From Enterobacter sp. 638 (GTDB lineage: Bacteria > Pseudomonadota > Gammaproteobacteria > Enterobacterales > Enterobacteriaceae): a stretch of 64,000 nt of DNA. The notes under the pieces were generated by a model. It was not told where the DNA came from. It searched no databases and saw nothing but the letters and a program-made list of their open reading frames with translations. A program made the position numbers and the translations under genes. Shown in pieces: positions 26,757 to 63,082 of the stretch (position 1 is the first letter of the stretch; each line of letters starts with the position of its first letter). Location: NCBI RefSeq assembly GCF_000016325.1, contig NC_009436.1, positions 2,604,001 through 2,668,000 of the forward strand, read 5' to 3'.

Positions 26757-26790
26757 AAAAAAAGGCCCCTGTTGAAATTGCAGGGGCCTG
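26757..26790 (-). terminator. cutC terminator
   Basis: On the minus strand GGCCCCTG pairs with CAGGGGCC and is followed by a long T-run. It is 56 bases past the cutC stop and may also limit cmoB transcription from the other side, although the plus strand lacks a T-tail. Confidence 0.85.
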
Positions 26791-26845
26791 GTACAAGCAA
26801 GCATCATATTGGGCAAGATGATGCGCGGTAAAAATCGGTACGTTG

Positions 26846-27589
26846 CTACACGTGATGACGCTCAATTATCGATTTCATTACCGCAACCGACTCTCCCTCT
26901 ACGCCATAGCGGGAATACTCATCCGCTTCGGCATCCGTCGACATTGACAATCCTGTATTGCGATAACGCATGGGTGAAGGCGTCCATTTGCCTGCAGAGC
27001 TGTGAAGCTCCTCAACCCCGGCGTTGATAAAGATTTCCAGATTGCTGGCACGGACACCCGCGCCTGCCATGATTATTGGAACACCTGATTGCGCTTTAAG
27101 TTCCGTAATTAATTTTATTCCTTTTTCAGCAGACGATTCCTGCCCTGACGTCAGGATACGTGCCACTCCTAATTCCGCCAACTTATCAAACGCTTGACGC
27201 GGATTTCGGCACATATCAAACGCACGATGAAAGGTGACCGCCATCCCTTTCGCGGCCGTCATAACCTGCCGCATACGCGGCATATCGACATTGCCATCTT
27301 CATCCAGCAGGCCAAGCACCAGCCCCGGGAACCCAAGATCGTGAACCATCGCGATGTCTTCCAGCATGGCGTCAAATTCACCCGCTGAATAGAAAAAGTC
27401 ACCGCCACGAGGGCGAATAATCGGGTGTACCGGGATTGTCACGGTCTGGCGAACCGATTTCAGCACGCCGTATGACGGCGTTAACCCGCCCTCTTTTGGC
27501 GCCGCACATAATTCAATGCGATCGGCTCCGTACTGTTGCGCCGTTACCGCACATTCCGCGCTGTAACAACAGATCTCCAAAAGCGCCAA
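26846..27589 (-). CDS. cutC: CutC family protein
   Basis: A 247-residue TIM-barrel protein of the CutC family, historically tied to copper tolerance, though the E. coli phenotype was later attributed to a neighbouring sRNA target effect. The N terminus [11 protein letters not shown] and the [13 protein letters not shown] motif are diagnostic. It is a single-gene unit, with its own terminator, next to yecM on the same strand. Confidence 0.93.
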
Positions 27590-37365: not shown

Positions 37366-37941
37366 ATGAATTTAAGGAAAAATGTCATTGCCGCCACTAT
37401 GCTGGCGATTATTTCCGGCAGCGCCTGTGCGGCTGAAACCAATGCAGGAACCATCCATTTTACTGGTCAAATTATAGAACCCAGTTGCACTATTAAAGGT
37501 GATGATGGCACCGATAGCACAGTTCCTCTCGGAACCTATCCCACCAGTTTATTTACGGCCTCGGGCGATGAGTCCACTCTTGTGCCTTTTTCAATCACCC
37601 TCGTTGATTGCCCTGTAAAAAGTGATGGTTTACCTCAGGTTCAATTAACCTTTACTGGACCCACAACGCTGACAGGTGCTACGACTTTACTGGACGTGAG
37701 CAAGATCACCACGACTGGCGATACCGCAGCAACCGGCGTTGGTATCGCAATCAGTGCCAAAGGTGAAGATGACCAACTGCTTTCGCTGGATGGTAAGGAA
37801 GGACAAATCTACATTGATCTTCCTGAAGCTAAAGAAGATCAGATTAAGTCAGATTTCAACGCAAGATATAAATCTTTCGCAGCAAAAGTAACGGCGGGTC
37901 CGGCCGATGGTGATCTTACCGTGAATATTCTTTACCGTTAA
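37366..37941 (+). CDS. Chaperone-usher fimbrial major subunit
   Basis: A 191-residue pilin-like protein with signal peptide (cut near residue 22, after SGSACA), followed by GTIHFTGQIIEPSCTI, the classic fimbrial subunit start. C41 and C82 should form the disulphide. The C-terminal tail ends DGDLTVNILYR, the expected last beta strand for donor-strand exchange. It is the first gene of a subunit-chaperone-usher-adhesin operon. A strong hairpin after the stop suggests it is made in excess of the other proteins. The order resembles yehDCBA, but I cannot assign the clade firmly. Confidence 0.85.
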   Translation: MNLRKNVIAATMLAIISGSACAAETNAGTIHFTGQIIEPSCTIKGDDGTDSTVPLGTYPTSLFTASGDESTLVPFSITLVDCPVKSDGLPQVQLTFTGPTTLTGATTLLDVSKITTTGDTAATGVGIAISAKGEDDQLLSLDGKEGQIYIDLPEAKEDQIKSDFNARYKSFAAKVTAGPADGDLTVNILYR

Positions 37942-38001
37942 TAGCGCTTCCATTATTCATAAAATAGATATTTTTATCGTTTTCTCGGGAGTTATTCCTA
38001 T

Positions 38002-38031
38002 TGATAGCCCGAAACCCCCTTCGGGCTATCA
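38002..38031. other. mRNA-stabilising or attenuating hairpin after the pilin gene
   Basis: TGATAGCCCGAA and TTCGGGCTATCA form a perfect 12-bp stem around ACCCCC. There is no T-run, so it probably pauses or protects the transcript between the pilin and chaperone genes. Confidence 0.7.
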
Positions 38032-38070
38032 CTCCCGCTGATTTAAAAATGTGATTTACAGGGAGCTTTG

Positions 38071-38757
38071 ATGCGTATTTTCGTGCTTTTTTTATTATGC
38101 ATTCCGGTAATTTCCACTTCATTTTGCCATGCAGCAGGTATACAAATTGGTCGCACAAGAATCGTTTATGAAGCGGGTAAAAAAGAGATTTCCCTTCCGC
38201 TAGTAAATAAAGACAGCATCCTTCCCTGGTTGGTGCAATCATGGACCGACACGGGTGATGGAAAAACTCGTGGTCCCTTCATTGTGACCCCCCCTTTATT
38301 CCGTCTCGACCCGGAAAAAGAGCAGAGTCTTCGTATTGCATGGAATGGAGCAGCGCTTCCAGAAAATAAAGAATCACTGTTCTACATGAACATTCGCACT
38401 ATCCCGGCAACGGCAAAGGAAGACGATCAGAAAAACGTTCTGCGCTTGATTTATAAAACGCGTCTGAAACTCTTCTGGCGCCCAGAGGGACTGAAAGGCA
38501 CTCCCAATGAGGCCTGCCAGCAACTTCGTTTCACGCGCAGTGGAAAAATGCTGACCGTGGTGAATAGCGGCGATTTCTACAGCATTTTTGACAACCTGAG
38601 ATTGGGAAACACGAAGATTGAAAGCGCCGATCAAGTCAGCCCTCAGTCAAGCGTCAGCCTCCCTGTTCCAGACGGTGCTACCGGTACAAGCGTCACCTGG
38701 CGTTGCATCACAGATTACGGTAATGCCTCAGCGCAATACACATTCAAACTGGCTTAG
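38071..38757 (+). CDS. Periplasmic pilus chaperone
   Basis: A 228-residue PapD-like chaperone. The signal peptide ends near FCHA (about residue 21), then GIQIGRTRIVYEAGKKE begins the first immunoglobulin domain. The conserved G1-strand/subunit-binding region includes the FYMNIRTIP motif. The C-terminal domain has a Cys pair (EACQQLRF and WRCITDYG). I start at the ATG at 38071, nine bases after GGGAG. It lies 129 bases after the pilin and 11 bases before the usher. Confidence 0.9.
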   Translation: MRIFVLFLLCIPVISTSFCHAAGIQIGRTRIVYEAGKKEISLPLVNKDSILPWLVQSWTDTGDGKTRGPFIVTPPLFRLDPEKEQSLRIAWNGAALPENKESLFYMNIRTIPATAKEDDQKNVLRLIYKTRLKLFWRPEGLKGTPNEACQQLRFTRSGKMLTVVNSGDFYSIFDNLRLGNTKIESADQVSPQSSVSLPVPDGATGTSVTWRCITDYGNASAQYTFKLA

Positions 38758-38768
38758 GACGAAACAAA

Positions 38769-41324
38769 ATGATTCATGGATTATGTCCTTCGCTCAGCCA
38801 TCGCCGCCTGCGCCTCAATCCCATTGTACGCTATTTAGGCGGTTTCTTGATGATGGCTTCGGCTGCGGCTCATGCTCGAGAATACCGTTTTTCACCCTCT
38901 TCACTGGAGGGTGACATGCTGATGCAACAGGATATCGACCTGTCTTTATTCTCGAAATCAAATGCCCAGTTACCCGGCGTCTACCCTTCAAGAATCAAAA
39001 TCAACGATAACCCTATCGATAATCTTGATATCACTTACCTCAGCGATAAAAATGGCGATCTCGTCGCGCAACTGACACCCGAAATGCTGCGTAAATGGGG
39101 GGTTGATATTGATAAATATCCTTCACTTTCATCACAAGTGGCGACCCGTCCCTTGGCAAAACCACTGGGAGATTACATTCCTCAGGCGGCGTCGAAACTC
39201 GATTTTTCCGTCATGACGCTGAACCTCAGCATTCCGCAAGCGGCGATTAGCAGTAACGGCAGGGATTACATTGATCCTTCACGTTGGGACGATGGAGCCC
39301 CTGTTGCCTTTGTCGATTACAGTTTTTCCGGTTCACAAAGCGAGGATGATGCGCGCAGCAAGACCACCAATCAGTACTTGAATATGCGTAGCGGCGCTAA
39401 CCTTGCGGGCTGGCGAGTGCGCAACTATTCCACCTGGAGCAAAACTGACGATGCGAACAGCTGGGATACCATTAATACCTATCTGCAACATGATATCGAT
39501 GCATTAAAGGCTCAATTTACCGGCGGTGAGAGCAGTACGCGCGGCGAGGTTTTCGATAGCCTGCAGTATCGCGGGGTCAACATTGCTTCCGATGAAGAGA
39601 TGCTGCCATACAGTCAGCGAGGTTACGCACCTACGATTCGCGGTATCGCGAGTTCAAATGCGGAAGTTTCGGTGCGTCAGAACGGCTATCTTATTTACCA
39701 GCAAAACGTCGCGCCGGGGGCCTTTGCCATTGATGACCTTTACTCTACGACCAACAGCGGCGATCTCGAAGTGACAGTAAAAGAAGCGGACGGTACTGAA
39801 CACCGCTTCACCCAACCCTATTCAAGCGTCGCCGTGATGCAACGCCCTGATCACGTTAAGTATGAACTTACCGCAGCGCGCTATCGTGCTGATAGCGGCA
39901 GCGATCAAAATCAGCCAGTCTTCGCTCAGGGCAGTCTCATCTATGGTGTGAATAACTACTTCACCGTCTTTGGTGGCCTGACCACATCACAGGACTATCA
40001 AGCAGCTAATGCTGGTAGCGGTATTGCGCTCGGCGCTTTGGGCTCCATATCTGCGGACGTCACGGTCGCTAAAGCCCAGCTCGATAATGATGAGAAAAGC
40101 ACCGGCCAGTCATATCGGCTGCTTTACTCCGGCAAAGTAGATGCGACCGACACTAACTTCACCCTGGCCAGTTATCGTTACTCAACAAGTGGCTACTACA
40201 GCTTTGCCGATGCCAACCAAAAATATGATCAGCATGAAGATGATTATCTATTTCGCTACAACAAACGTAACCGTATTCAGGCAAGCATCAGTCAAAAGAT
40301 TTACGACGTCAGCCTCTATCTTAACGGCTATCAGCAGGATTACTGGGACACCTCTCAAACGGAACGCAGCATTTCAGCCGGGCTTAACACCGTCGTGAAA
40401 AGCATCAGTTTCCATCTGGCGTACACCTATAGTGAAACTAATGACAGTGAAAATGACCAGATGGTTTCTTTCGGCTTAAGTATGCCGCTCAGTCAATGGC
40501 TTCCCCGCGCCTGGAGCAGCTATAACATAAGTAACAGTAAACACGGTTACACACGACAAAATGTGGGGGTGAATGGCACGTTGCTTGATGACGAGCGCTT
40601 AAGCTATTCACTTCAGCAGAGCCACTCAAACCATGATGGGGATGATACCAGCAGTGTTTACGGCAGTTACCGCTCGCAGTATGCCAATCTCAACGCAGGT
40701 TATTACTATGCCTCCGATAATTCCCAGCAACTCAGCTACGGTCTTAGCGGTGCAGTGGTTGCACATCCTCTGGGGGTGACGCTTGCTCAGCCATTAGGGA
40801 ATCAATTTGCCATTGTGAATGCAGGTCATGCGTCAGGCGTACGTTTCGAGAATCAACGTGGAATTCAGACTGACTGGCAAGGGAATGCCATCATTCCTTC
40901 ACTGAGCCCGTATCAGGAAAACCGCATCCGCATTGATACCACCAGCCTACCTGAGAACGTTGATACTGCCGACACTGCCGTCACCGTGATTCCTTCACGT
41001 AATGCAGGTGTGGTGGCCCGTTTTGATGCCCACGTCGGTTACCGCACACTTATCACCTTGACCCGTAACGATGGCAAAACCGTTCCATTTGGTGCAGTTG
41101 CTACTGCACGGTCACCGGTTATCAGCGGTATCGTTGACGACACAGGCACCCTCTATCTTGCCGGCATATCGGACAGCGTGCAGCTTGACGTCAAATGGGG
41201 TAATGCACCTAACCAGCATTGCACGGCCAACGTGTCGTTGGATCCGTCGCAAAATGCGATAAACCCAACAGGCATTCGCTCCGTCCGCGCAATTTGTCAG
41301 CAGGAAATGAAACATGTTAACTGA
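38769..41324 (+). CDS. Outer membrane fimbrial usher
   Basis: An 851-residue usher of the PapC/FimD type that forms the outer-membrane pore for pilus assembly. A signal peptide of about 36 residues ends in AAAHA. An N-terminal chaperone-binding domain, a 24-strand barrel with an internal plug (PYSQRGYAPTIRG is a typical marker), and C-terminal domains with a closing Cys pair (HCTANV and AICQQE) are all present. The frame is intact. It overlaps or abuts the adhesin gene. Confidence 0.93.
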   Translation: MIHGLCPSLSHRRLRLNPIVRYLGGFLMMASAAAHAREYRFSPSSLEGDMLMQQDIDLSLFSKSNAQLPGVYPSRIKINDNPIDNLDITYLSDKNGDLVAQLTPEMLRKWGVDIDKYPSLSSQVATRPLAKPLGDYIPQAASKLDFSVMTLNLSIPQAAISSNGRDYIDPSRWDDGAPVAFVDYSFSGSQSEDDARSKTTNQYLNMRSGANLAGWRVRNYSTWSKTDDANSWDTINTYLQHDIDALKAQFTGGESSTRGEVFDSLQYRGVNIASDEEMLPYSQRGYAPTIRGIASSNAEVSVRQNGYLIYQQNVAPGAFAIDDLYSTTNSGDLEVTVKEADGTEHRFTQPYSSVAVMQRPDHVKYELTAARYRADSGSDQNQPVFAQGSLIYGVNNYFTVFGGLTTSQDYQAANAGSGIALGALGSISADVTVAKAQLDNDEKSTGQSYRLLYSGKVDATDTNFTLASYRYSTSGYYSFADANQKYDQHEDDYLFRYNKRNRIQASISQKIYDVSLYLNGYQQDYWDTSQTERSISAGLNTVVKSISFHLAYTYSETNDSENDQMVSFGLSMPLSQWLPRAWSSYNISNSKHGYTRQNVGVNGTLLDDERLSYSLQQSHSNHDGDDTSSVYGSYRSQYANLNAGYYYASDNSQQLSYGLSGAVVAHPLGVTLAQPLGNQFAIVNAGHASGVRFENQRGIQTDWQGNAIIPSLSPYQENRIRIDTTSLPENVDTADTAVTVIPSRNAGVVARFDAHVGYRTLITLTRNDGKTVPFGAVATARSPVISGIVDDTGTLYLAGISDSVQLDVKWGNAPNQHCTANVSLDPSQNAINPTGIRSVRAICQQEMKHVN

Positions 41325-42465
41325 TATGAAAACCTTTTCTCGCGCCTTCATCGGTGCGCTGCTTTGTCTCGTCTTTTCGGCTTCAGCGTCCGCAGCAACG
41401 ACATTACTCAATTGTTTTGGCGCACCACAGGAATACAACATCTCCTATGACAGAGATTTAAACGCCAGCGAAAACATTACTCATCACGAAATCAATGTGG
41501 ATCATTTGGTCGGCGATGGGATGGAAATGGAGGCTAACTGCAGTTGTCCAAAAAATATCTCTGGCACCACGCCTGTACTGGAACTCACATTGGCGGGTAG
41601 CCCCCTCTCGCCAGGCGTCAGCGGGTATGGATATTTGACGGATAAAGTGGATATCGATGTCAGGGGATATACGGATGCGGTGAACTCGCCTGATGGTGGT
41701 GGATTATTCGGGCTGAATATTAATCAGTACCCAACATCACCCTCATCAATGCCTAACACGATTGAAGATATTAAAACCAAAGAAGGGACAGCCAGTGTAT
41801 GCAGTACGAGCACACGACCTTCTGACTCCACGTCAGTTAAGCGAAAATTCAAACTGAACGTGATTGGGGCAAAATTTTACATCAAAAAACCAATTATTGG
41901 CAAAGAAGCGATCCCCACTACCCTCGTCGTTCAAAACTATACCTGCCTCTATTTCGGCTCAGGAAGTTGTGATATCACCGGCGCGCAGCAGGTATCGAAT
42001 ATCTGGCTGAGTGGGTCGCTCTCAGCTCCGTTAAGTTGCACTATTAATGAGGGCAGCACGATTGAGGTCGATTTTGGCAATATCGTGAGCAAGCAATTTA
42101 ACGGAAAAAGTCGACCACCTCAGGGATACGCCCTAAAAAATGTCGATATATCTTATCATTGCGATGATAACGCCATTGGGAATAATGACAGAATTAAGCT
42201 GACGCTAACCGCCGATCAGGGAGTTGTCGATAGCAGCGACCCGCTGGTCGCGAAAATGCTTGATAAGGATGATGTAGGCGTTCGAATTTATGATGAGAAT
42301 AACCAAAATGTGGCGCTAGACGGCACATTCGAATTCCCGGTCCCGATGGACGATCAAGGAAATGGTGTGGTGCGAATCAAAGCCGCGCCCGTCAGCACTA
42401 CCGGAAAAACGCCGGAACCCGGTCAGTTTGAAGGTAACGTCACGGTAAAAATGGATTTGCGTTAA
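41314..42465 (+). CDS. Fimbrial tip adhesin (two-domain)
   Basis: A 383-residue exported protein. The signal peptide ends near SASASA. The N-terminal 200 residues have Cys pairs (LLNCFG, ANCSCPKN, TASVCS) and match no subunit fold I recognise, as expected for a receptor-binding domain. From about residue 240 the sequence is pilin-like (CTINEGSTIEVDFGNI to a final VTVKMDLR). The ATG at 41314 has AGGA seven bases upstream and overlaps the usher; an ATG at 41326, two bases after the usher stop, is the alternative. The receptor is unknown. Confidence 0.8.
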   Translation: MLTDMKTFSRAFIGALLCLVFSASASAATTLLNCFGAPQEYNISYDRDLNASENITHHEINVDHLVGDGMEMEANCSCPKNISGTTPVLELTLAGSPLSPGVSGYGYLTDKVDIDVRGYTDAVNSPDGGGLFGLNINQYPTSPSSMPNTIEDIKTKEGTASVCSTSTRPSDSTSVKRKFKLNVIGAKFYIKKPIIGKEAIPTTLVVQNYTCLYFGSGSCDITGAQQVSNIWLSGSLSAPLSCTINEGSTIEVDFGNIVSKQFNGKSRPPQGYALKNVDISYHCDDNAIGNNDRIKLTLTADQGVVDSSDPLVAKMLDKDDVGVRIYDENNQNVALDGTFEFPVPMDDQGNGVVRIKAAPVSTTGKTPEPGQFEGNVTVKMDLR

Positions 42466-47148: not shown

Positions 47149-48816
47149 TCAAAATGTTTCCCAGTTTTCTTCTTTTCCATGGGCTGTCGCACGGGTGTTT
47201 TTCACCACAGCGGCAGACGTCGTCCCGGCAAAAACTGCACGCGACGTATCCGTATTGACAGGCGTAGAGGTAAGGCGGAACGCCGAGACGGCCATCTTCA
47301 GACGGCTCGCCTGGTCTTCCAGTGCAGCGGCCGCCGCAGCGGACTCCTGCACCAGCGCGGCGTTTTGTTGTGTAACGCGATCCATTTCTTGTACGGCCAG
47401 AGCGACCTGATCGATCCCCCGGCTTTGTTCATCAGACGCCGAGGCAATTTCGCCCATGATGTCCGTCACGCGAGTCACCGCGTTAACGATGTCCGTCATC
47501 GTTTCACCCGCGCTCTCAACCAGCACTGAACCGGTATTGACGCGTGAAACAGAGTCATCAATCAGAGTTTTAATTTCTTTTGCCGCATTTGCGCTGCGGC
47601 TCGCAAGGTTACGCACTTCACCCGCAACAACGGCAAACCCGCGGCCTTGTTCACCGGCACGCGCCGCTTCAACCGCTGCGTTCAGTGCCAGAATATTGGT
47701 CTGGAAGGCAATCCCATCGATCACGCTGATGATATCAGCGATTTTTTTCGAACTGCCGGTGATTTCCTGCATGGTTTTCACCACGCCATCCACCACTTTC
47801 CCGCCATGCAGCGCCGTTTCCGACGCTCTTTCCGCCAACTGGGACGCCTGACGGGCGTTATCGGCGTTTTGCTTCACGGTAGCGGTAAGCTGTTCCATGC
47901 TGGCGGCCGTCTCTTCCAGTGCGGAGGCCTGCTGTTCAGTACGGGAGGAGAGATCGTTGTTGCCCATTGCGATTTCGCTGGTACCGGTGTAAATCGCATC
48001 TGACCCCTGGCGCACATTGGCCACGGTGTCCGTCAATGAGCGCTGCATATGATCCACGCTGCTCGCCAGTTCAGTTATTTCGTTACGCCCGGAAATCGTC
48101 AGCTTTTTGGTGAGATCGCCACCGGCGATTTCACGAATGTGGCCGATGACGTTCCCCAAAGGATTCAGCAGGATATGCCGAATGCCGTACCAGACGCCGA
48201 CCAGCACAATCACCAAAGCCAACGCCAGAATCGCCATCTGCCATTTGGCAAAGCGGTAATCGTCGCGGGTTTCTGTGAGTGCCGTGAGATATTGCTGACT
48301 GCTGGCGGTGTCGTATTCTTTGAGCGCTGTCCCAAGGGCATTTTGCATTCCCTGAGTCGGCTGGGCGAAATACGCATCCGTATTGCCGCTCTCCAGGAAT
48401 TGAATCAGTTCTGCCAGCCCGGCCGCGTAGTTTTTGTATTTTTCATCAATGTTAAGGCTCGCCTGCTCCATCGCTGGCTGAGGCGTAATTTGTTTAAAAG
48501 CGTCGTAGTGTTTCGCCGAATCCGCCAGCGTGCCTCGCGCATTTTTCAGCAGGTCTGTTTTGGCGCTGCTCTGCTGATTATTGGGATCCATCATCATACG
48601 GGCGGAGGAACGGCTCAGGTTGATACGCGTTTGCAGCATCAGGTCCCAGGCCGAGGTCAGTTCACGTTGTTGCAAACGCAGATCGTTTGCGGCCGTGTAA
48701 CTCTCCTGATTTTGTTTTAAAGATGAGAAAAACAGCCCACCAGAAATAAGCTGCAAAAGTGCGAAAATGACCAGCACCATCATCAGCATTGTGACTACGC
48801 GGATACGGTTCAACAT
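47149..48816 (-). CDS. tar: Methyl-accepting chemotaxis protein Tar (aspartate type)
   Basis: A 555-residue chemoreceptor. The periplasmic segment [16 protein letters not shown] keeps the three Arg residues that hold aspartate in E. coli Tar (R64, R69, R73). HAMP (about 214-266) and the signalling domain follow, and the last five residues are NWETF, the CheR/CheB tether. It is the first gene of tar-tap-cheRBYZ, with a FliA promoter just upstream. In E. coli cheW precedes it by about 150 bases; here 8.5 kb separates them. Confidence 0.94.
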
Positions 48817-48847
48817 ACAACACCTTCTCTAAGTTTTATTAACGGTG

Positions 48848-48874
48848 TTATCGGCACGGGTAGCAGGAACTTTA
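48848..48874 (-). promoter_or_regulatory. FliA (sigma-28) promoter of tar-tap-cheRBYZ
   Basis: On the minus strand TAAAGTTC (48867-48874) and GCCGATAA (48848-48855) are separated by 11 bases. This matches the class 3 flagellar consensus TAAAGTTT-N11-GCCGATAA at 15 of 16 positions. It lies 32 bases before the tar start. Confidence 0.93.
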
Positions 48875-48900
48875 CATTTGCGAAAGGGAAAAGCGTGCGC

Positions 48901-49866
48901 TTAGAACGTGACGTCAACGATCAGGGTGTCGTTATAGGTTCCGGCAGGAGGAGTGGCCTGGTTGGTGAGGACTTTGGCGGTGTAGTTATACGTGCGTAAA
49001 AGCCCGTCAGTACTGACTTGCGACGAGGCTGCACTGGCCCAACGTTCCGTCCCGCTTCCCCCCCAGCGGTTGTTTGTTGCGCCTTTGTAAATATCGTAAC
49101 TCATGAAGTTATTTCCGCTCGCCATTCTGCGCACGCCATTGAGGGAATTGGCACCATTGTTAATGCCAATCGTGTATACGCTTCCTTTGGTGCAGGTCAC
49201 GGAGACGGCCTGAGAAATGGTCGGGAAATTTTGCACCAGCGGTGCACTGTTGAAATTGACGTTTGGCGTGGTCATCGCGCTACAGTCGTTGGTCACGTTC
49301 ATATTGAGCGTGATGCTGGTCGTCGCCGTCCCGGTTTGCGGCGTCAGACAAATCCCCACCGCACCGACTGAACAGACGTTGTAGTTAATGCTAAACGTTA
49401 AGATCACCTGATATGGCCCCGCGGTAACGTTTTGTCCGGGAACCGTGCGAAAATAGAGTGGTATATTGTATTGTTTTGCGCCCAGCAGGCTGAGCAGCGT
49501 GCTGCCGCTCCAGGTATAGGCTTTTGCGATTTGCACTTCAGTGCTGCCAGAACATCCCGTCAACCCGCATAATCGCGTTGGGATCACATCTGGAATCGCC
49601 GCGTTATCCGTGCGCTTCATGGTGGCGCGACTGTTTGCCGACACGGTTGCCGAGGTGTAATTCAGCGTCACCGAATCGTTCGTCAATAAATTCAGTACTG
49701 CATCGCAACTCACCACCAGCGTGCCCGTCGTTTCGACCTCTCCTGCCCCGCTAAGAGCAAACGAGGTGACACTCCCAAACGACGCGTTGACGGTACTCAC
49801 GTTGCATACCGCCCAACTGCCGCCTGATGTCATCAGCAGCAGGAGTAACAGCAGCAGGCGTTTCAT
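48901..49866 (-). CDS. Archaic (Csu-type) pilus tip adhesin, two spore-coat-U domains
   Basis: A 321-residue exported protein: signal peptide (LLLLLLLLMTSGGSWA), then two tandem SCPU domains, the second beginning near NDCSAMTTPNVNF and both ending in the typical GTY...DTL/VDVTF strand pattern. In Acinetobacter Csu pili the two-domain protein CsuE sits at the tip and binds hydrophobic surfaces, so the same role is inferred. The ATG overlaps the usher stop (ATGA). It is the last gene of the pilus operon, 84 bases before tar. Confidence 0.85.
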   Translation of the reverse strand: MKRLLLLLLLLMTSGGSWAVCNVSTVNASFGSVTSFALSGAGEVETTGTLVVSCDAVLNLLTNDSVTLNYTSATVSANSRATMKRTDNAAIPDVIPTRLCGLTGCSGSTEVQIAKAYTWSGSTLLSLLGAKQYNIPLYFRTVPGQNVTAGPYQVILTFSINYNVCSVGAVGICLTPQTGTATTSITLNMNVTNDCSAMTTPNVNFNSAPLVQNFPTISQAVSVTCTKGSVYTIGINNGANSLNGVRRMASGNNFMSYDIYKGATNNRWGGSGTERWASAASSQVSTDGLLRTYNYTAKVLTNQATPPAGTYNDTLIVDVTF

Positions 49867-52247
49867 GGTTTCTCCCGACAGGTCAGCGGGCCGAAGGTTT
49901 GCAATTTATGTTCAGGATTCGCGCCAACCGTTAGCGTGGCATGACAGCGCTTGCCCCCCGGCAGAAGCACCTCCAGCGGGTTCACATTATTCAAATTTTC
50001 AAGCCAGGCGATGCCGTCATACCCGACCACCGCCGTGCTGCGAGACGCGCGTCTGACCTGACTCCCTACCGGAATAGCGGCCCCATCCACATCATGAAGA
50101 ATCACGCTGGCCACTCGCTCTTGCTCCATCGGGAAATCCACCAGAAAACCGCTGTTGCGACGGATAGCGACACGGCGCTCGGTCTCTTTTAGCCGCGTAT
50201 CAGCCGGTAAATTCAGCGTATTGATACTGTAGCTAGCCGGATAATAGGCCGAGACACCGCTGATCAGCAGATAGCCGTTATTGTTCGTCTTGCCGACAGG
50301 CTGATTTTCGTAATTCACGGGCACATCGGGATGCCCGTCGGTGCTGATCACCACAAATGCGTCGTTGATTTTGTTTGCAGCGAACAGCTCGCCATCCATC
50401 AGCACAATTGAGCCCATCGCTTCGCCCCACCAGGTCATCCGGTCCTGCTCGCCGTACCCGCCGCCCTGCAGCTCGATATTGTTATTACGCCAGCCCAGCG
50501 AGGCCTGCTGATAGTTACGCGACTGGGATTGGTTCGCCCACGCCATATTCCAGCTCAACCCGCCATCCGTCGGCATGGAGTGGTTGTAGTTCACGCGCTG
50601 CGTGCTGCCCGAATCAGGCGTGTTTTCAAACGTCACCGCGGCACTGTCGCGCTCACCAATCGGGATTTGTAACGACATGGCAACCGTCCAGTCACCGCGC
50701 TGCTGATCGCGGCTGGCCGCCAGATAGAGGCTGCTACTGCCCCACAAATTACGGCTCCACGATAGGTTCAGTAGCTCGGTTTTTTGGCTGTCAAAACTCT
50801 CAACGCCAATCCACGCCGCGCCGATATTACCGAAATCACCCAGGTTAAAGGTCAGTGAATATTGGTCGGTATTCCGACTCAGGCTGGCGATGGGTTGATT
50901 TTTTTCATCATAAATTGTGGGCTGATCGTAAAGCGCCAGATTGCTGTATCCCCGATCGCGCCGCGAGTGCTGCGTGGCCAGGCTGAATGCGCTGGTGCTG
51001 TATTGATAACCCCAGTTAATTTGCCCGCCTTCTTCCCCGCGCAGGCGGCTGTGTGTGTAAGAGGAGTTGACCACTCCATAGCGTCCGAGTTTGACGATGG
51101 TCCCTGCGCCGCCCAGCGCCAGCTCTTCTGCCGCTTCGCCGTGCCCCTCAAGCGTCAGCCAGTCGGTCAGGCCGTAGCGATACGAACCACTGCCCGCCGC
51201 TGGGCCATAGTCAAAATTCTTAATGCCATAATTGCGTCGCAGGCTTCCCAGGGTCACCGCGCCGTCGCTCAGCCCCTGCTTTAACAGTTCACTGGTGACG
51301 TAAAACGGCATGGTGGTACTCACCTGACGCCCCAGCGCATCGGTGGTGATCAGCACCGCATCCCCGGCACCGTTGATATACGGCAGATTTGTCAGCGTGA
51401 ACGGACCGGGCTGTAATTGCGTCGACCCCGAGCGATAGCCGTTGATGAACAGATCGACCGATGTTGGCACGGCGGCTTCACCCGAAAATTCGGGCAGCGG
51501 CCAGGTCACCAGATCCGGGCGCAGTGAGAAGTCACGTCCATAGCTGATGCCGCCCATGCGCACGCTGCTGCTCCAGCTGACGGCATCACTGATGACATCC
51601 CCGGCGGTCCAGGTGGTGGCGTCCTCTTCGTTGGTCACCATCAGGGTAGTGTCATACCGCACGTAGCCCTCTTCCTGACCATTGTTGCCGGTAAAACTTT
51701 TGCGGGTGTAGCCCGTTGAAGAGAGGGAGCCGTTTTCGTTGAAATAGCGGAATTCATGCCACAGCGATGCCTGGCCGCCAAGGTGCTCCGTATGGTTGGT
51801 GTAGAGATCGTAATTCAGCAACGCGCCGCGGCCAAACTGTGGTGTGCTCTGCCTGGTTTGCCCGCCGAAGGGCGTTACGCGCGCGGAAATCCACTCACGG
51901 GGTACGGTGAGCAACAGACGTTGAGCGGCACTGTCATACTCCACGCGCACGTTAGCCAGCTGCGAGAGATTCACGTCCCCCGTTGGCACCTGCTCAGGCG
52001 GTAGACCGGCGCGCAAGAGATCGGCACTGGAGATAAAAAAGGTGCCATCACGCTGCGTGACAGGAACCACCAGCCCGGTGTCGTAGTGGTTTATCACCAC
52101 CGAAAGCTGAAAAACGGCTTCGTTGTTCATCGCCTGCGCATCTGGCGGGGGCGGTAAACTGTCGTCGCCAGGTGTAGCCCAGACGCTCGTCGACACGCAC
52201 AGCAGGATGATCATCGTCCGTTTCAGTTGACGGGCGCAGACTGCCAT
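49863..52247 (-). CDS. Archaic (Csu-type) pilus usher
   Basis: A 794-residue outer membrane usher with signal peptide ending in SVWA. The short N-terminal domain (AVFQLSVVINHYDTGLVVPV) and the region FINGYRSGSTQLQPGPFTL followed by GAGDAVLITTDALGRQVS are typical of CsuD/sigma-clade ushers. The frame is intact, ending with a Cys pair (RCHATL, LTCREKP). It overlaps the chaperone by 25 bases and the adhesin by four. Confidence 0.9.
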   Translation of the reverse strand: MAVCARQLKRTMIILLCVSTSVWATPGDDSLPPPPDAQAMNNEAVFQLSVVINHYDTGLVVPVTQRDGTFFISSADLLRAGLPPEQVPTGDVNLSQLANVRVEYDSAAQRLLLTVPREWISARVTPFGGQTRQSTPQFGRGALLNYDLYTNHTEHLGGQASLWHEFRYFNENGSLSSTGYTRKSFTGNNGQEEGYVRYDTTLMVTNEEDATTWTAGDVISDAVSWSSSVRMGGISYGRDFSLRPDLVTWPLPEFSGEAAVPTSVDLFINGYRSGSTQLQPGPFTLTNLPYINGAGDAVLITTDALGRQVSTTMPFYVTSELLKQGLSDGAVTLGSLRRNYGIKNFDYGPAAGSGSYRYGLTDWLTLEGHGEAAEELALGGAGTIVKLGRYGVVNSSYTHSRLRGEEGGQINWGYQYSTSAFSLATQHSRRDRGYSNLALYDQPTIYDEKNQPIASLSRNTDQYSLTFNLGDFGNIGAAWIGVESFDSQKTELLNLSWSRNLWGSSSLYLAASRDQQRGDWTVAMSLQIPIGERDSAAVTFENTPDSGSTQRVNYNHSMPTDGGLSWNMAWANQSQSRNYQQASLGWRNNNIELQGGGYGEQDRMTWWGEAMGSIVLMDGELFAANKINDAFVVISTDGHPDVPVNYENQPVGKTNNNGYLLISGVSAYYPASYSINTLNLPADTRLKETERRVAIRRNSGFLVDFPMEQERVASVILHDVDGAAIPVGSQVRRASRSTAVVGYDGIAWLENLNNVNPLEVLLPGGKRCHATLTVGANPEHKLQTFGPLTCREKP

Positions 52248-52984
52248 TGTGTATCTCTGGCATTAATTTGCGCACTGAGTTGGTGAGGTCGCTGTAACCC
52301 GGAAGGCAGCGGCCAGCTGCGGGTGCTGTGCGGTAGCACGTAACCCAATAACCCGTCGGCGACGGTGCGCTTCTGCCCTCCTTCCTGCATCGTCACGTGG
52401 CTAATTCGGACGTGAATATCCCCTTGATTTCGCACCTGCACCGCAGGTTTTCCGTCCTCCTGGATGATCCGCCAGCTCAGATTCTTCGGATCAACCAGCG
52501 CGTGATGCGCCCCTTCCTTAATGGTCGGAATACCCTGGCCATACACGAACAACGGAATGGAATAACGCATTTGGATTTTCAGGCCAATCTCGGGCTGGGA
52601 TTTGTCATTTGGCTGGGGAATTTCATCGACAATAATGCGGTAGGCTTGCTCGACACCCATCGGGACTGTGTTTTGTTTGATAAGACGAATTAACTGCTTG
52701 CCCTCTTTGCCAATAGTGACAATCGGCGGGCTGGCAACCACATCCTGCTGCGCCGAGTAGCGCTCATACCCGTTTTCCTGCTTCCATCGCACGATGCGTA
52801 CCTGCATGGTGGTAGCAGTGTTACCCTGATTCTGGATCCACAATTCCGTGGCTTTCGTGTCAGCAGAGAGCCACGGGTCAATTGGCCAGAGCAGAATCGT
52901 CGCCGCCGCGTGTGTCCTGCCCGTCATGGCTGCAAACATCACCCCTAAACTCAGTACGCCATAGCGTAAAAAAGATGCCTTCAT
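52223..52984 (-). CDS. Archaic (Csu-type) pilus chaperone
   Basis: A 253-residue PapD-like periplasmic chaperone of the sigma/archaic clade (CsuC-like). A signal peptide ends in THA; ILLWPIDPWLSADTKATELW opens the first Ig domain (20 residues shown). Basic residues for subunit carboxylate binding lie in MQVRIVRWKQ. I take the ATG at 52984, seven bases after GGAG; an in-frame TTG one codon earlier is less likely. It sits between the pilin genes and the usher. Confidence 0.88.
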   Translation of the reverse strand: MKASFLRYGVLSLGVMFAAMTGRTHAAATILLWPIDPWLSADTKATELWIQNQGNTATTMQVRIVRWKQENGYERYSAQQDVVASPPIVTIGKEGKQLIRLIKQNTVPMGVEQAYRIIVDEIPQPNDKSQPEIGLKIQMRYSIPLFVYGQGIPTIKEGAHHALVDPKNLSWRIIQEDGKPAVQVRNQGDIHVRISHVTMQEGGQKRTVADGLLGYVLPHSTRSWPLPSGLQRPHQLSAQINARDTQWQSAPVN

Positions 52985-53000
52985 CAACCTTCTCCCTGTT

Positions 53001-53549
53001 TCACCACGACAGCGTCACGGTGAGTTGATCTGAATAAGTGCCTGCGGGGCTGAATCCCGTCAAAAGCGCCACGCCAAAAAGCGGTAACGCAATATTGTTG
53101 CTGTTGGTGTAGGTCACTGGAATAGCCTGGTTGACCCCAATTTCACTATTGGCAGCTAGCGAACTGCTGCTGTAAAGCCGATACGCCACTACGTCCGTTC
53201 CACTGGCACGCTGCATCCGACGCACTGACGCGTAATGCTGGCCCCCATCAATGCTCATACTCAGCGAGACACCCGGCGTACAGGCGATAGATAACGATCC
53301 GTTGGGGACAAAACTGGTGCTCACCTGACCGGTCGCCACCCCTGAGCGCGTACCAAAATTCAGCGATCCCAATACCCCACCGGTTCCTGCCGTCACCGAG
53401 CACCCTGGCGTGATGGTCGCGGCAACCAGGAATGACTGCGTGGTAACAGCTTGCGCGAACGGAGTGCACAAAAGGCACACCGTCAGGGCAAAAAAAGCAT
53501 GCAGTTTTCCCTCTGCGAATGGTCGCAGATCTGGAATCGCTTCCGTCAT
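53001..53549 (-). CDS. Csu-type pilus subunit (spore coat U domain)
   Basis: A 182-residue exported protein with one SCPU domain. The signal peptide is within the first 35 residues (LTVCLLCTPFAQA), preceded by a polar stretch that may mean a later start. The mature part has ATITPGCSVTAG, YASVRRMQRASG and the terminal GTYSDQLTVTLSW strands. The Cys pair should be disulphide-bonded. It resembles CsuA or CsuB minor subunits. It lies 14 bases after the first pilin. Confidence 0.82.
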   Translation of the reverse strand: MTEAIPDLRPFAEGKLHAFFALTVCLLCTPFAQAVTTQSFLVAATITPGCSVTAGTGGVLGSLNFGTRSGVATGQVSTSFVPNGSLSIACTPGVSLSMSIDGGQHYASVRRMQRASGTDVVAYRLYSSSSLAANSEIGVNQAIPVTYTNSNNIALPLFGVALLTGFSPAGTYSDQLTVTLSW

Positions 53550-53563
53550 TTCCGGCGCTTGTG

Positions 53564-54133
53564 CTAGTAGGTCACGCTAACGTTAATGGTGTCGGTATAC
53601 GTGCCCGGTACGACGGTAACGCTGTTGCCGCCCCCCGTAATTCGTCCATACAAGGTGTAACTGTCGATGCCCCCTGTCGTGGATGCCACAGGGATAGGCG
53701 CGTTGTTCGCGATAATGTTATTGAACCCGCTGTCACTGAAGAGACTGTAGGCGACGCCCTGAGCGGTATTGGAGGTGTTCACTAGATACCGCGCTGGCGT
53801 GCCAGGCGTGCCGACGACAGTGCCCGGTGCCGTGGAGTTGGTATTGCCGGTGATCGCGACCGTATAACTGGCCGTTGTACATTGGATCGTAAAGGTGTTC
53901 CCGCCGCTGGCACCGGCGAGCTGGGTCGTTAGGGTCGAAAATGTGGCGGGATGTGTGCCAAAGTCCAGACTACCGAAGTTAATGCCGTTTTGTGTCGGTG
54001 AGCCGTTGATCAGGCAACCATTGGTCAATGTTAACGTTGCACCAATGGTCCCGTTGCTGGTGACTGCCCCGGCATTTTGCGCCGCCAGGGCCAATAATCC
54101 ACCCGTACATATCAGAAGGAGTTTACTTTTCAT
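53564..54133 (-). CDS. Csu-type pilus major subunit (spore coat U domain)
   Basis: A 189-residue SCPU pilin, first gene of the operon. A signal peptide (about residues 1-23, ending QNAGA) precedes TLTLTNGCLINGS, a Gly/Thr-rich middle, and the terminal GTYTDTINVSVTY strand. GGAGG lies seven bases before the ATG. The position and composition fit the CsuA/B major rod subunit. A 433-base divergent gap separates it from the symporter gene. Confidence 0.85.
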   Translation of the reverse strand: MKSKLLLICTGGLLALAAQNAGAVTSNGTIGATLTLTNGCLINGSPTQNGINFGSLDFGTHPATFSTLTTQLAGASGGNTFTIQCTTASYTVAITGNTNSTAPGTVVGTPGTPARYLVNTSNTAQGVAYSLFSDSGFNNIIANNAPIPVASTTGGIDSYTLYGRITGGGNSVTVVPGTYTDTINVSVTY

Positions 54134-54565
54134 TTACTGCCCTCCAGAAAATGCAGCCTTCGCTTTTCGTATTTTATTGATAACACTCAATCTGTTAGCA
54201 CCGCTTAACATTTCTGATGAGCAGTTATTGAGAATTTAGTTTACGGATGAGGGTTCAACCACCTACCTATTTTTATCTACGACGAATGCCTGATTTACGG
54301 TTTATTTCATTAAAAAACAATATGTTACATTAATTATCAAGCGGTTAAATCCTCTGAATTTAAAGATATATTCATTATTCTGTGACGCAGGTCACAATAT
54401 ATCGATCTCGCAAGAGCAACTAAAATAATAAATCTTAAAAATTAGTTGTATGCAGGGTCGCTTTACTTCAATTTATGTGATGAATATTTAGATGCGCTGA
54501 AATTAAAAAATTATATGACTCAGCGTGCGGCAAACACTTCATTGCATAACAGAGGATCTTTTTTC
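54134..54565. other. Divergent regulatory region: Csu-type pilus / symporter
   Basis: This AT-rich gap carries promoters for the pilus operon (minus) and the symporter (plus). The one clear element is a perfect CRP site at 54381-54396. The right end is open in frame with the symporter, and TTG or ATG codons at 54446 and 54515 are alternative starts. Confidence 0.6.
54381..54396. promoter_or_regulatory. CRP site upstream of symporter
   Basis: TGTGACGCAGGTCACA is a perfect TGTGA-N6-TCACA palindrome. It is about 185 bases before the chosen symporter start and 248 before the first pilin, so it could act on either or both. Confidence 0.88.
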
Positions 54566-55825
54566 GTGGCAAGTGCAAACAAACTCACGCTCTTCATCGT
54601 GATTTTCATGCTGGCGGGTATTCTTTCAGGGGCAGCGATTCATGAGTACGCATCGGCCAGCGCCATCGCGGCCTGGGCGGACAACATCACACTCCTCACC
54701 GATATTTTTCTCCGTCTTATTAAAATGGTTATCGCGCCTCTGGTTTTCAGCACCCTGACCGTGGGGATCATGAGACTCGGCGAAACCTCAACCATTGGGC
54801 GCGTTGGCGGCAAAGCGATGGTGTGGTTTATCAGCTCCTCCGTGCTCTCCATTCTGGTGGGGTTATTCATCGTTACGCTCGAACAGCCGGGCAGCGGCCT
54901 GAACCTGGCGATCCCCGCTGAGTCTGTCGATACGGGGCTGGCTGTCAGCGGGATGTCGCTAAAAGCGTTCCTGTCGCACACCATCCCTACCAGCATTGCC
55001 GGGGCGATGGCCAATAACGAAATCCTGCAAATTGTCGTGTTTTCGATGTTCTTCGGGATTGGTGGCGCGTCCCTGGGCGAGAAATTCAACGCCCCGCTAG
55101 TTGCCGCACTCGATGTGGTTTCCCATATCATGCTGAAAGTCACGGGCTATGTGATGTACGTTGCGCCGCTGGCCATTTTCGCCGCCATTTCATCGGTCAT
55201 CGCTACGCAGGGTCTGGGGATTCTGCTGAACTACGCGTCGTTTATTGGCGGGTATTATGTTGCCATTCTCCTCACCTGCCTGGTGCTGCTGGCGGTGGGA
55301 TATATGGTGCTGAAGAAAGAGGTTTTCCGCCTGGTCAGCATGCTGAAAGATCCGGTGCTGGTTGCCTTTACCACCAGCAGCTCTGAGGCGGCTTATCCAA
55401 AAACGCTGGAACAGCTCACGCGCTTCGGCTGCTCGCGCAATATCGTCTCCTTTGTTCTGCCGATCGGATATTCCTTTAATCTGGTGGGCTCAATGGTGTA
55501 TTGCTCGTTTGCGTCGATGTTTATCGCCCAGGCGTACAATATTCAGCTGAGTTTCGCTGAAGTCACCGTTCTGATGCTGACCCTGATGCTGGCGTCAAAA
55601 GGCATTGCCGGCGTTCCGCGTTCTGCGCTGGTGGTGTTGGCCGCCACCATCCCGAGTTTCCATATTCCGGTTGCCGGGATTTTGCTACTGATGGGAATCG
55701 ATCACTTCCTGGATATGGGTCGTTCGGCGATTAATGTGCTGGGGAATGGGATTGCGACTGCGATGCTGGCGCAGAATGAGGGGTTGCTGGAGGAGGTGCC
55801 GGAGCTTTTGGAGCAGGAAGCGTAA
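54566..55825 (+). CDS. Dicarboxylate/amino acid:cation symporter (DAACS)
   Basis: A transporter of about 419 residues in the DctA/GltP family, inner membrane. The family landmarks are present: serine-rich reentrant loop FTTSSSEAAYPKTL, the NLVGSMVYCSF helix in place of the common NxDGT-type segment, and MLASKGIAGVPRSALV. Substrate could be a C4-dicarboxylate or an acidic amino acid; sequence alone does not decide. I choose a GTG at 54566 with AGAGGA nine bases upstream; an ATG at 54515 would add 17 polar residues. It converges on nothing known and is followed by the IS481 element. Confidence 0.82.
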   Translation: MASANKLTLFIVIFMLAGILSGAAIHEYASASAIAAWADNITLLTDIFLRLIKMVIAPLVFSTLTVGIMRLGETSTIGRVGGKAMVWFISSSVLSILVGLFIVTLEQPGSGLNLAIPAESVDTGLAVSGMSLKAFLSHTIPTSIAGAMANNEILQIVVFSMFFGIGGASLGEKFNAPLVAALDVVSHIMLKVTGYVMYVAPLAIFAAISSVIATQGLGILLNYASFIGGYYVAILLTCLVLLAVGYMVLKKEVFRLVSMLKDPVLVAFTTSSSEAAYPKTLEQLTRFGCSRNIVSFVLPIGYSFNLVGSMVYCSFASMFIAQAYNIQLSFAEVTVLMLTLMLASKGIAGVPRSALVVLAATIPSFHIPVAGILLLMGIDHFLDMGRSAINVLGNGIATAMLAQNEGLLEEVPELLEQEA

Positions 55826-55935
55826 TCTGGCGTTTTTCGCCAATCCTTTGGCGTAACCGTGGAAAAATTCCGTTCACTCACGTTTCTCAGTGACCTTTCA
55901 TACCCACTGCGGTGAACGTGTAAAGGGGGCTATCG

Positions 55936-57234
55936 TGTATGAACCGGTCACATGGGTAACACTTTAAACCGGGCACATGGGTAACAGGTTATAACGGTAC
56001 GGTAAACAGCTGACGGAGGTTTGCCGTGCCCTGGACTGAGACTGTTACCATGCAACGTTTGCAGTTTGTCGCGACCTGCCTTGAAGGCAACCTTCCCGTT
56101 GCCGAGGTATGCCGCCGCTTTAATATCAGCCGTAAGACCGGTTACAAGTGGCTGGCCCGTTTTTCACCGGATGATACCGCCTCCCTGGCTGACCGCTCCC
56201 GGGCACGCCATCACCAGAACTCAACCCCTGAACCCATGGTGCAGCTGTTGCTGGACACTAAACAGCAGCACCCGCTATGGGGTCCGGACAAAATCAGGCA
56301 GCGACTGCTTAACCTGAATATCACCGGCGTGCCTGCGGCCAGTACGATTGGAGAGCTGTTTCGGGTTCACGGGCTGGTTAAAAAGCGTCGGCCTCCGGCT
56401 TTTAAATCCACACGACCTCATGAACTACATACTGTCGCCCACCCCAATGATGTCTGGAGTGCCGATTTCAAGGGTAAATTTACTCATACCGGCGGGCGCT
56501 GGTGTCACCCTTTTACGCTGACCGACAACTGCAGCAGGATAGTGCTGGCGTGCGATGCCACCTATATGCCTGACGGCCGGTTTGTCATTCCCTGCCTTGA
56601 ACGGGTATTCCGGGAATGCGGTATGCCACAGGTGCTGCGTACGGATAACGGACCGCCGTTTGCCGGTGCTGGCCTGTGGGGGCTGAGCCAGATGTCCATC
56701 TGGCTGATTAAATGTGGTGTCCTGCCGGAACGTATCCGGCCGGGTAAGCCCACAGAGAACGGGCGGCATGAGCGGATGCACCGGACTCTGAAGGATGCAC
56801 TAAAGCGACATACAAAGTTCACGTCCCTGGAAGAGCAGCAGGCCTGGCTGGATGCCTGGCGCAGTGAGTTTAATGACATACGCCCCCACAAGGCGCTGGG
56901 CGGAAAAACACCCGGCTCGGTCTGGTATCCGTCAGAGCGCATCTTTACCGGCCCACTGAAGGCAATGCCGGTACCGGATGATGCACGGACATTACGCGTC
57001 TCAGTAAAAGGTGATTTATGCTTTAACAGCACCCGGATATTTTTATCGGAGGCGCTGAGGGGGGAATGGATATGGATGAAGCAGGTCGAAGAAGATCTGG
57101 ATGAGATAGGTTTTGGTGAGTTGATACTGGCCCGGTACGACAGACGAAATCATCGTATAATCCGGGCCGATTAAGTCAAAAAGTGTTACCTATGTGACCG
57201 GTCAGATCTGTAACCCATGTGACCGGTTCATACA
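55936..57234 (+). mobile_element. IS481-family insertion sequence
   Basis: The element is about 1.3 kb. Tips read TGTATGAACCGGTCACATGG on both ends in inverted orientation. Each end carries two copies of a 19-bp motif like TGTTACCCATGTGACCGGT (left copies near 55943 and 55967, right near 57184 and 57210), typical transposase-binding repeats. The one transposase gene is intact. Exact borders are uncertain because inverted similarity continues outward and no direct target duplication is evident. Confidence 0.85.
56026..57174 (+). CDS. IS481-family transposase
   Basis: A 382-residue DDE transposase. An N-terminal helix-turn-helix (about residues 20-45, VAEVCRRFNISRKTGYKWL) recognises the ends; the integrase core (rve) contains D147 (WSADFKG), D207 (LRTDNGPPF) and E244 (PTENGRHER), with 36 residues between the last two. 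All three are intact, so the element may be active. The start is GTG at 56026, seven bases after GGAGG; an ATG at residue 9 is the alternative. Confidence 0.93.
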   Translation: MPWTETVTMQRLQFVATCLEGNLPVAEVCRRFNISRKTGYKWLARFSPDDTASLADRSRARHHQNSTPEPMVQLLLDTKQQHPLWGPDKIRQRLLNLNITGVPAASTIGELFRVHGLVKKRRPPAFKSTRPHELHTVAHPNDVWSADFKGKFTHTGGRWCHPFTLTDNCSRIVLACDATYMPDGRFVIPCLERVFRECGMPQVLRTDNGPPFAGAGLWGLSQMSIWLIKCGVLPERIRPGKPTENGRHERMHRTLKDALKRHTKFTSLEEQQAWLDAWRSEFNDIRPHKALGGKTPGSVWYPSERIFTGPLKAMPVPDDARTLRVSVKGDLCFNSTRIFLSEALRGEWIWMKQVEEDLDEIGFGELILARYDRRNHRIIRAD

Positions 57235-57363
57235 CGATAGCCCCCCCTTAACACGTTCACCGCAGCGAATCTGAAAGGTGGTGATGAATCCTTAGCGAAC
57301 GGAACCATTCCACCTGTACAACATAGAATTCCCCCCTGCGATGAGGGGAACGGACCGCAGAGT

Positions 57364-57867
57364 TTACGCTACGTGATTCGCTGCGATATCCAGCAATGCC
57401 ATCTCATCGCTGTTCAACAGCTTCTCGATGTTCACCAGAATCAGCATACGGTCACCGAGCGCACCCAGGCCAGTCAGGTATTCGGTCGACAGCGTGACGG
57501 CAAACTCTGGTGCCGGGCGAATCTGGTCTGCGGCCAGGGACAGCACATCAGAAACACCGTCAACCACAATACCCACGACGCGTTGACCCAGGTTCAGGAC
57601 GATCACCACGGTATTCTCGTTGTACTCCACGTCGCCCTGGCTGAACTTCACGCGCAGATCGACGATAGGGACAATGACACCACGCAGGTTAGTCACACCT
57701 TTGATAAACGCAGGCGTGTTGGCAATGCGAGTCACCTGATCGTAGCCGCGAATCTCCTGCACTTTAAGAATATCGATGCCGTATTCTTCATCGCCTAAAG
57801 TGAAAACCAGAAATTCTTGCCCTGATGGCTCGCCTGCCAGTTTCGTTACATTACTCATACCGGTCAT
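57364..57867 (-). CDS. cheW: Chemotaxis coupling protein CheW
   Basis: CheW links chemoreceptors to the kinase CheA. It is a 167-residue SH3-like double beta-barrel protein with the conserved [16 protein letters not shown] core. Length equals E. coli. It follows cheA by 20 bases. In E. coli tar comes next; here the IS481 element begins 51 bases after the stop, counting its outer inverted arm. Confidence 0.97.
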
Positions 57868-63066: not shown

Positions 63067-63082
63067 TGTGACCTAGATCACA
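63067..63082. promoter_or_regulatory. CRP site upstream of flhDC
   Basis: TGTGACCTAGATCACA is a perfect CRP palindrome about 276 bases before the flhD start. cAMP-CRP activation of flhDC is established in E. coli and Salmonella, so motility should be under catabolite control here. Confidence 0.9.

Follow-up and report, generated by a model that had tools for sequence, protein, structure and literature searches.

In Escherichia coli, the chemotaxis model, the operons motA-motB-cheA-cheW (mocha) and tar-tap-cheRBYZ (meche) are separated by a junction of about 0.15 kb, with a sigma-28 box before tar and with no pilus, symporter or traces of either (locus L073). In Acinetobacter, the csu operon comprises six genes, csuA/B-A-B-C-D-E, and hydrophobic finger loops of the Csu tip bind surfaces. 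Here, we analyzed a 64,000-nt stretch of the Enterobacter sp. 638 genome (the window; all coordinates are window positions unless a locus is named), which has both operons and the sigma-28 box before tar as in E. coli, and in which cheW and tar are separated by a Csu-type pilus operon, a DAACS symporter and an IS481-type insertion sequence (IS). The strain 638 arrangement is already in print: the part of PMC2869309 that covers this locus lists it as csuEDCAB, and reads the cluster with its flanking 'integrase' as a later acquisition. Compared across the family, this reading is turned round, as the pilus and the symporter appear to be old and shared, having most likely settled in an ancestor of the core Enterobacteriaceae and later disappeared from E. 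coli as well as other lines, while the 'int' gene belongs to a separate, recent IS.

A first-pass annotation of the window had placed these elements between cheW and tar, and every one of them was recovered where it had been put. The interval 48817-57363 spans exactly from the tar start to the cheW stop; the features in and around it are the following.

47149..48816, minus strand: tar, aspartate-type chemoreceptor, first gene of tar-tap-cheRBYZ (NCBIfam MCP II, 1047 bits, cut-off 900)
48848..48874, minus strand: sigma-28 box of tar, TAAAGTT-N12-GCCGATAA, starting 26 bp past the pilus stop codon
48901..49866, minus strand: CsuE-type tip adhesin with two SCPU stretches (CsuE 6fjy, 3.5e-24)
49863..52247, minus strand: outer-membrane usher (Usher 6.1e-35, PapC_C)
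52223..52987, minus strand: periplasmic chaperone, CsuC-like (CsuC 3.1e-37)
53001..53549, minus strand: pilus subunit B, SCPU domain
53564..54133, minus strand: pilus subunit A, SCPU domain, likely rod subunit (8cio, CsuA/B)
54381..54396, plus strand: CRP-type box TGTGA-N6-TCACA, predicted site, between symporter and pilus
54446..55825, plus strand: DAACS symporter, predicted aspartate/glutamate type (PF00375)
55936..57235, plus strand: IS481-type element, 1300 bp, with terminal inverted repeats; transposase 56026-57174
57364..57867, minus strand: cheW, last gene of motA-motB-cheA-cheW (NCBIfam cheW, 346 bits, cut-off 260)

The five pilus genes together occupy 48901-54133 on the minus strand. 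On both sides the flanking chemotaxis genes are complete, with cheW, tar and tap all above their NCBIfam cut-offs, in agreement with the earlier statement that both chemotaxis units are intact. The same annotation had the block splitting the chemotaxis operons, which is right insofar as it stands between motA-motB-cheA-cheW and tar-tap-cheRBYZ; neither operon is itself split. Its figure of about 150 bp for the E. coli spacing also stands, since two loci (L073, L078) measured 133-134 bp by a method that reads about 15 bp short. The block consists of three layers of differing age rather than a single insertion.

The pilus resembles the Csu pilus of Acinetobacter baumannii in its SCPU-domain subunits, its CsuC-like chaperone, its usher and its two-domain CsuE-like tip, the SCPU family PF05229 scoring above cut-off in subunit A, subunit B and the tip, and the chaperone and usher being those expected of the Csu type. 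It differs in having five genes instead of the six in the Acinetobacter order, and in sitting between chemotaxis operons with a CRP-type box. The tip aligns with CsuE over residues 108-321, residues 1-107 being unaligned by sequence; an AlphaFold model built from 27 sequences (pLDDT 79.6, pTM 0.58) has CsuE 6fjy as its best solved fold match, at a modest TM-score of 0.40. The operon is therefore predicted to encode a Csu-type adhesive fibre, in which chaperone and usher would export the SCPU-domain subunits and a surface-sticking, CsuE-like tip.

The symporter carries the SDF domain PF00375 (333 bits, cut-off 27.9) and matches aspartate transporters, 9bgz at an E value of 3.4e-68. It belongs to the same family as the GltPh-type aspartate transporters (PDB 9bgz, 3v8g, 1xfh) and keeps the GID..LDMGR stretch of 3v8g, in which the Asp and Arg of GltPh bind aspartate; it differs from these chains in having NLVG in place of NMDG, and scores under the NCBIfam cut-offs for DctA and GltP. 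The substrate that the symporter would import is likely aspartate or glutamate, the kind of ligand that Tar senses; within the block the symporter lies beside the aspartate receptor gene, a position that may be due to chance.

Two sets of relatives were surveyed. The named set holds 80 cheW loci, the best of 430 found, with 73 scorable. For the GTDB-drawn set, 246 genomes of the family gave 135 with a CheR match, and cheR-to-cheW regions were taken from 129, leaving out the window's own genome and five in which CheR was in pieces or partial; with the window added there were 130 loci, of which 120 were scorable. The sets overlap, and their class counts are kept separate; the tree, the deletion-trace junctions and the counts for the flhC-motA gap and the sigma-28 box pool both, with some genomes counted twice. 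A locus was called pilus-bearing when half of the usher matched at 45% or more, a rule that includes L040, whose usher match covers half; a G183 usher with an internal stop was left uncorrected. Gap lengths at the cheW-tar junction are about 15 bp short, as they start from a longer tap query, and the size classes are insensitive to this.

The pilus was found at the cheW-tar junction in 45 of the 73 scorable named loci (24 with the symporter, 21 without) and in 29 of the 120 GTDB-drawn loci (8 with, 21 without). The remaining named loci had the symporter (16), a gap of up to 400 bp (9), a gap of 400-1000 bp (2) or another insert above 1 kb (1), and the remaining GTDB-drawn loci fell into the same classes with 13, 64, 6 and 8. 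The pilus is there in almost every scorable locus from Enterobacter, Lelliottia and Leclercia, L080 having the symporter alone, and the distribution is patchy only more widely. Shared presence at the same site had been proposed as the mark of an old, kept arrangement, and this is what the comparison returned. The annotation had also named, as grounds for abandoning its reading, a cheW-tar pair already separated in most relatives. This applies in part: 61 of the 73 scorable named loci have pilus, symporter or both there, and the separation is for this reason not peculiar to strain 638. An assembly artefact can be rejected, because pilus and symporter recur at this junction without the IS in 24 named records.

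Outside the junction, close relatives of the pilus were not found. Among the 246 genomes, with at most four candidates scored in each, all 30 unbroken usher matches of 60-100% identity lay beside cheR, the window included, and the G195 usher, split over two contigs, has one piece beside cheR; weaker ushers (58% identity or less) lie elsewhere. Five genomes without a CheR match in the usher table have ushers of 38-39% identity only, and many of the CheR-less genomes are tiny. A blastn search of 5,426 E. coli genomes, sensitive down to roughly 65-70% identity, found no such usher.

The pilus tree agrees with that of its chemotaxis neighbours. A tree of CheA, MotB and MotA was built for 193 of the 210 pooled loci, the other 17 being without full CheA, MotA or MotB. 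All 73 pilus carriers (L002, whose contig ends before the usher, being counted on its subunit and chaperone genes) fall within a clade of 124 out of 186 scored tips, the other 62 having no pilus; the 60 symporter carriers fall within a clade of 129 out of 187, and the other 58 have no symporter. The symporter extends deeper than the pilus (L158, L159, L235) and therefore probably arrived first. With identical rows counted once (69 reduced to 55 distinct loci), tree distances of the pilus and of CheA-MotB-MotA correlate at r 0.911, a value reached in none of 2000 permutations, and 26 of 38 strong pilus splits are shared with the chemotaxis tree, 3 being in conflict. The combination of absence from close relatives and tree conflict that would mark a recent genomic island was not found.

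We also searched the junctions for remains. Among the 27 clade loci classed by the above rule as without pilus and symporter, nine carry a deletion trace, that is a piece of the tip, subunit A or symporter gene, compared with 0 of 63 loci outside the clade; in one of the two passes, loci with less than 30 bp after trimming were not queried. Two of the nine, probably one genome counted twice, keep the whole subunit A gene. Because of the pilus at the same site, the agreeing trees and these traces, the compact E. coli junction is most likely a loss and a derived state, so that the model junction of chemotaxis would be the reduced form of one at which many Enterobacteriaceae keep a Csu-type pilus. 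In this history the pilus operon and the symporter would have been inserted between the two chemotaxis operons in an ancestor of the core Enterobacteriaceae, with later losses in E. coli and other lines.

Upstream of the pilus there is a conserved CRP-type box. TGTGA-N6-TCACA is the consensus of CRP, which activates flhDC in E. coli. We counted this box in 450-bp test regions, with identical rows counted once, loci with subunit A less than 65% identical left out, and mononucleotide shuffles as background. With two mismatches or fewer it was present in 60 of 60 distinct pilus upstream regions (shuffles 62/300), and with one or none in 58 of 60 (shuffles 17/1200). Controls gave 0/59 in the usher interior and, in regions shorter than 450 bp, 0/169 between flhC and motA and 2/71 in junctions without pilus or symporter; before the single genes the box occurred in 1/61 for the usher, 0/60 for the chaperone, 0/61 for the tip, 0/178 for cheA and 0/183 for cheW. 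Pilus loci without the symporter have it in 29 of 30 cases, and with at most one mismatch it precedes flhD in 161 of 170 distinct upstream regions. The window holds only two perfect boxes, one before the pilus and the other before flhDC, against 0.05 expected for the window from dinucleotide shuffles.

63067..63082, plus strand: second perfect CRP-type box, upstream of flhDC

With one mismatch allowed, the window has 3 boxes against 2.0 expected, so that the box alone is no proof and its conservation is the argument. Since the upstream box is conserved, cAMP-CRP is a likely controller of the pilus, as it is of flhDC, and would act through the same kind of site at both. This gives a testable, family-wide link between a regulator of swimming and a sticking organelle.

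At its other end, the pilus operon stops shortly before the chemotaxis promoter. A sigma-28 box lies upstream of the first chemoreceptor (MCP) gene in 182 of 193 loci, and in 71 of 74 pilus loci it starts 20-82 bp past the tip stop codon; in the window it lies 31 nt before the tar ATG. Between tip and tar, 70 of 72 loci showed no terminator-like hairpin, whereas one follows cheW in 53 of 72. As no terminator is recognisable between tip and tar, read-through of the pilus transcript into tar is predicted, and tar-tap-cheRBYZ would keep its own sigma-28 promoter and receive additional transcripts whenever the pilus operon is active. That sigma-28 itself controls the pilus or the symporter is rejected: 3 of 77 loci have a sigma-28-like box before subunit A (shuffles 9/385), and 0 of 64 have one before the symporter.

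Published expression data bear on these genes. In the sections of PMC4301647 on strain 638 RNA-seq, flagellar and chemotaxis clusters are lower on sucrose than on lactate, the majority of pili genes are up on sucrose at 12 h, and Ent638_2458-2462, the csu cluster, is listed among the pili; the available text of PMC7526173 contains neither 'fimbria' nor 'chaperone-usher'. Although not decisive, these data speak against plain co-expression of pilus and motility; they would be in keeping with swimming and sticking being controlled in opposite directions. In the literature consulted, we saw no treatment of the cheW-tar junction across the family or of the CRP-type box. The first-pass annotation had suggested selection for linkage of swimming and sticking. 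The tie of the pilus to the junction is old and kept, judging by the tree agreement and by the ushers beside cheR; plain co-expression with motility is left unsupported by the sigma-28 counts and by the RNA-seq. An old swim-or-stick switch, in which cAMP-CRP would act in opposite ways at flhDC and at the pilus and the pilus transcript would run into tar-tap-cheRBYZ, keeping the chemosensory array while flagella are off, appears to us an unlikely, speculative extension, with E. coli having lost the switch together with the pilus. Were it true, attached cells would keep the array with their flagella off.

We then considered whether the junction is merely insertion-tolerant, the pilus persisting there through inertia and having no link in function to motility. 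Tolerance of insertion, which the annotation had suggested, is borne out by several kinds of kilobase insert in different lineages. Non-adhesive cargo at cheW-tar includes a porin (L063), a Fic protein (L165), MFS transporters (L210, L212), an ABC transporter (L187), a lipase-like gene with two Tli4-type immunity genes between cheW and pilus (L154, 4915-8946) and an Rhs/VgrG-type island that fills the 10 kb seen after cheW in a closely related Lelliottia (L001, 11327-20260). Such unrelated cargo, a sigma-28 site before the pilus no more frequent than chance and the lack of the pilus in many lines of the clade all speak for inertia. On the other hand, the flhC-motA gap of the same cluster is free of inserts (58-199 bp in 192 of 192 loci, out of 210, in which both genes were found), no close pilus orthologue was found elsewhere in the 246 genomes, the CRP-type box is conserved, and unrelated adhesins have come to the junction. 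Among the latter, a classical four-gene pilus occupies it outside the core clade in L188 (2795-7738) and, by likeness, in L190, an independent adhesin arrival; L166 (9923-14541) has a divergent archaic pilus, its usher 33% identical, preceded by a CRP-type box and an ATATATT motif, as if one cassette had been exchanged for another with the promoter region retained; and two Citrobacter records have an autotransporter-like gene of 1164-1255 amino acids between cheW and symporter, while L032 apparently keeps a shortened remnant of such a gene (by eye).

L036, 10858-14352: autotransporter-like gene (Pfam-scanned)
L042, 10858-14625: autotransporter-like gene (by likeness)

Taken together, we consider inertia a doubtful explanation, yet a possible one.

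The far end of the meche operon behaves in a similar way. The cheZ-flhB junction could be scored in 56 loci, made up of 37 out of 40 surveyed genomes and 19 from the named set of 80. In 17 of the 56 the two genes lie more than 1 kb apart, and nine of these 17 have a classical pilus like the one in the window.

37366..42465, plus strand: second, classical chaperone-usher pilus operon, between flhB and cheZ, outside the block

Four of the 8 other large inserts were scanned and contain a peptidase (L254), an HD-domain gene (L267, L284), or an ABC transporter with an HD-domain gene (L283). As the cheW-tar and cheZ-flhB junctions hold varied cargo, both ends of the meche operon take inserts. In strain 638, tar-tap-cheRBYZ is bracketed by two unrelated pili; the flhB-cheZ pilus also appears among those that PMC2869309, in the part concerned, lists for this strain.

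The explanation that accounts best for the whole, namely an old junction pilus and symporter, CRP-type control, read-through into tar and a recent IS, seems to us probable, and several observations weigh against it. All three conflicting splits concern Enterobacter-type loci, of which L009 is recorded as Lelliottia. The Escherichia-clade loci (n=6) keep no trace of pilus or symporter, and loss there is therefore inferred from the tree; L057, titled Escherichia sp. ESNIH1, has the pilus and groups with Pseudescherichia. A single gain would have to be followed by 18 losses of the pilus and 12 of the symporter, whereas unordered parsimony explains their distribution with 15 and 9 changes, respectively, and because it is cheaper some regain by recombination is possible. 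The CRP-type box lies mostly near 262 nt (198-365) 5' of the subunit A start codon, and symporter loci without this pilus keep it in 16 of 28 cases at two mismatches or fewer (shuffles 22/140), so that it may serve both genes. Lastly, the main text of PMC4301647 prints no value for the csu cluster.

The conflicting splits and the parsimony count for the pilus, with the apparent swap in L166 behind a kept box and ATATATT motif, would favour repeated gains, by homologous recombination within the conserved che genes on either side, over one gain followed by losses. The strong splits that agree with the chemotaxis tree and the deletion traces in nine of the 27 emptied or reduced clade junctions tell against it, and we regard repeated gains as the general explanation as quite improbable.

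The old pilus and symporter contrast with the third layer of the block. The transposase scores 25.1 for LZ_Tnp_IS481 (cut-off 22.2) and 207.9 for transpos_IS481, below the cut-off of 224. The element ends in inverted TGT...ACA, lies between two gene ends and disrupts no gene; merely 2-3 identical bases are found at its junctions, and a target duplication is hard to judge because the targets are palindromic. In the strain 638 genome the 1300-bp element occurs in full five times, as near-identical copies, and contig 1 has a further, partial one. Across 40 genomes including that of the window, 3 of the 39 others have a match, at about 70% identity over most of the match and to a partial element. 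The transposase had no match in the 80 named loci nor within the junction of the 129 GTDB-drawn loci, and megablast against 72,556 plasmid records returned no copy of the IS. The IS jumped into a palindromic repeat recently and separately from the rest; it carries none of the other genes, and within the block it alone is recent. That the csu block itself came recently by horizontal transfer through this neighbouring 'integrase', as published for strain 638, is very improbable: an IS481-type transposase does flank it, and GC is about 0.60 within the usher compared with 0.51-0.56 in the flanking chemotaxis genes, but in many genera pilus and symporter stand at this junction with no IS present, the pilus and chemotaxis trees agree, and acquisition through the IS is rejected by its own ends, its four other full genomic copies and the lack of a transposase match in the surveyed junctions. 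A neighbouring IS is, more generally, no proof of recent acquisition.

Read by eye, all five full IS copies are centred in palindromes; four share the repeat flank GTTCCGTTCAC-N-GTGAACG...TTAAGGGGGC, and the fifth lies in a terminator-like hairpin. The element may target hairpins. Elsewhere in the window, the MicL small RNA at 26757-27071 is the only Rfam match at gathering threshold.

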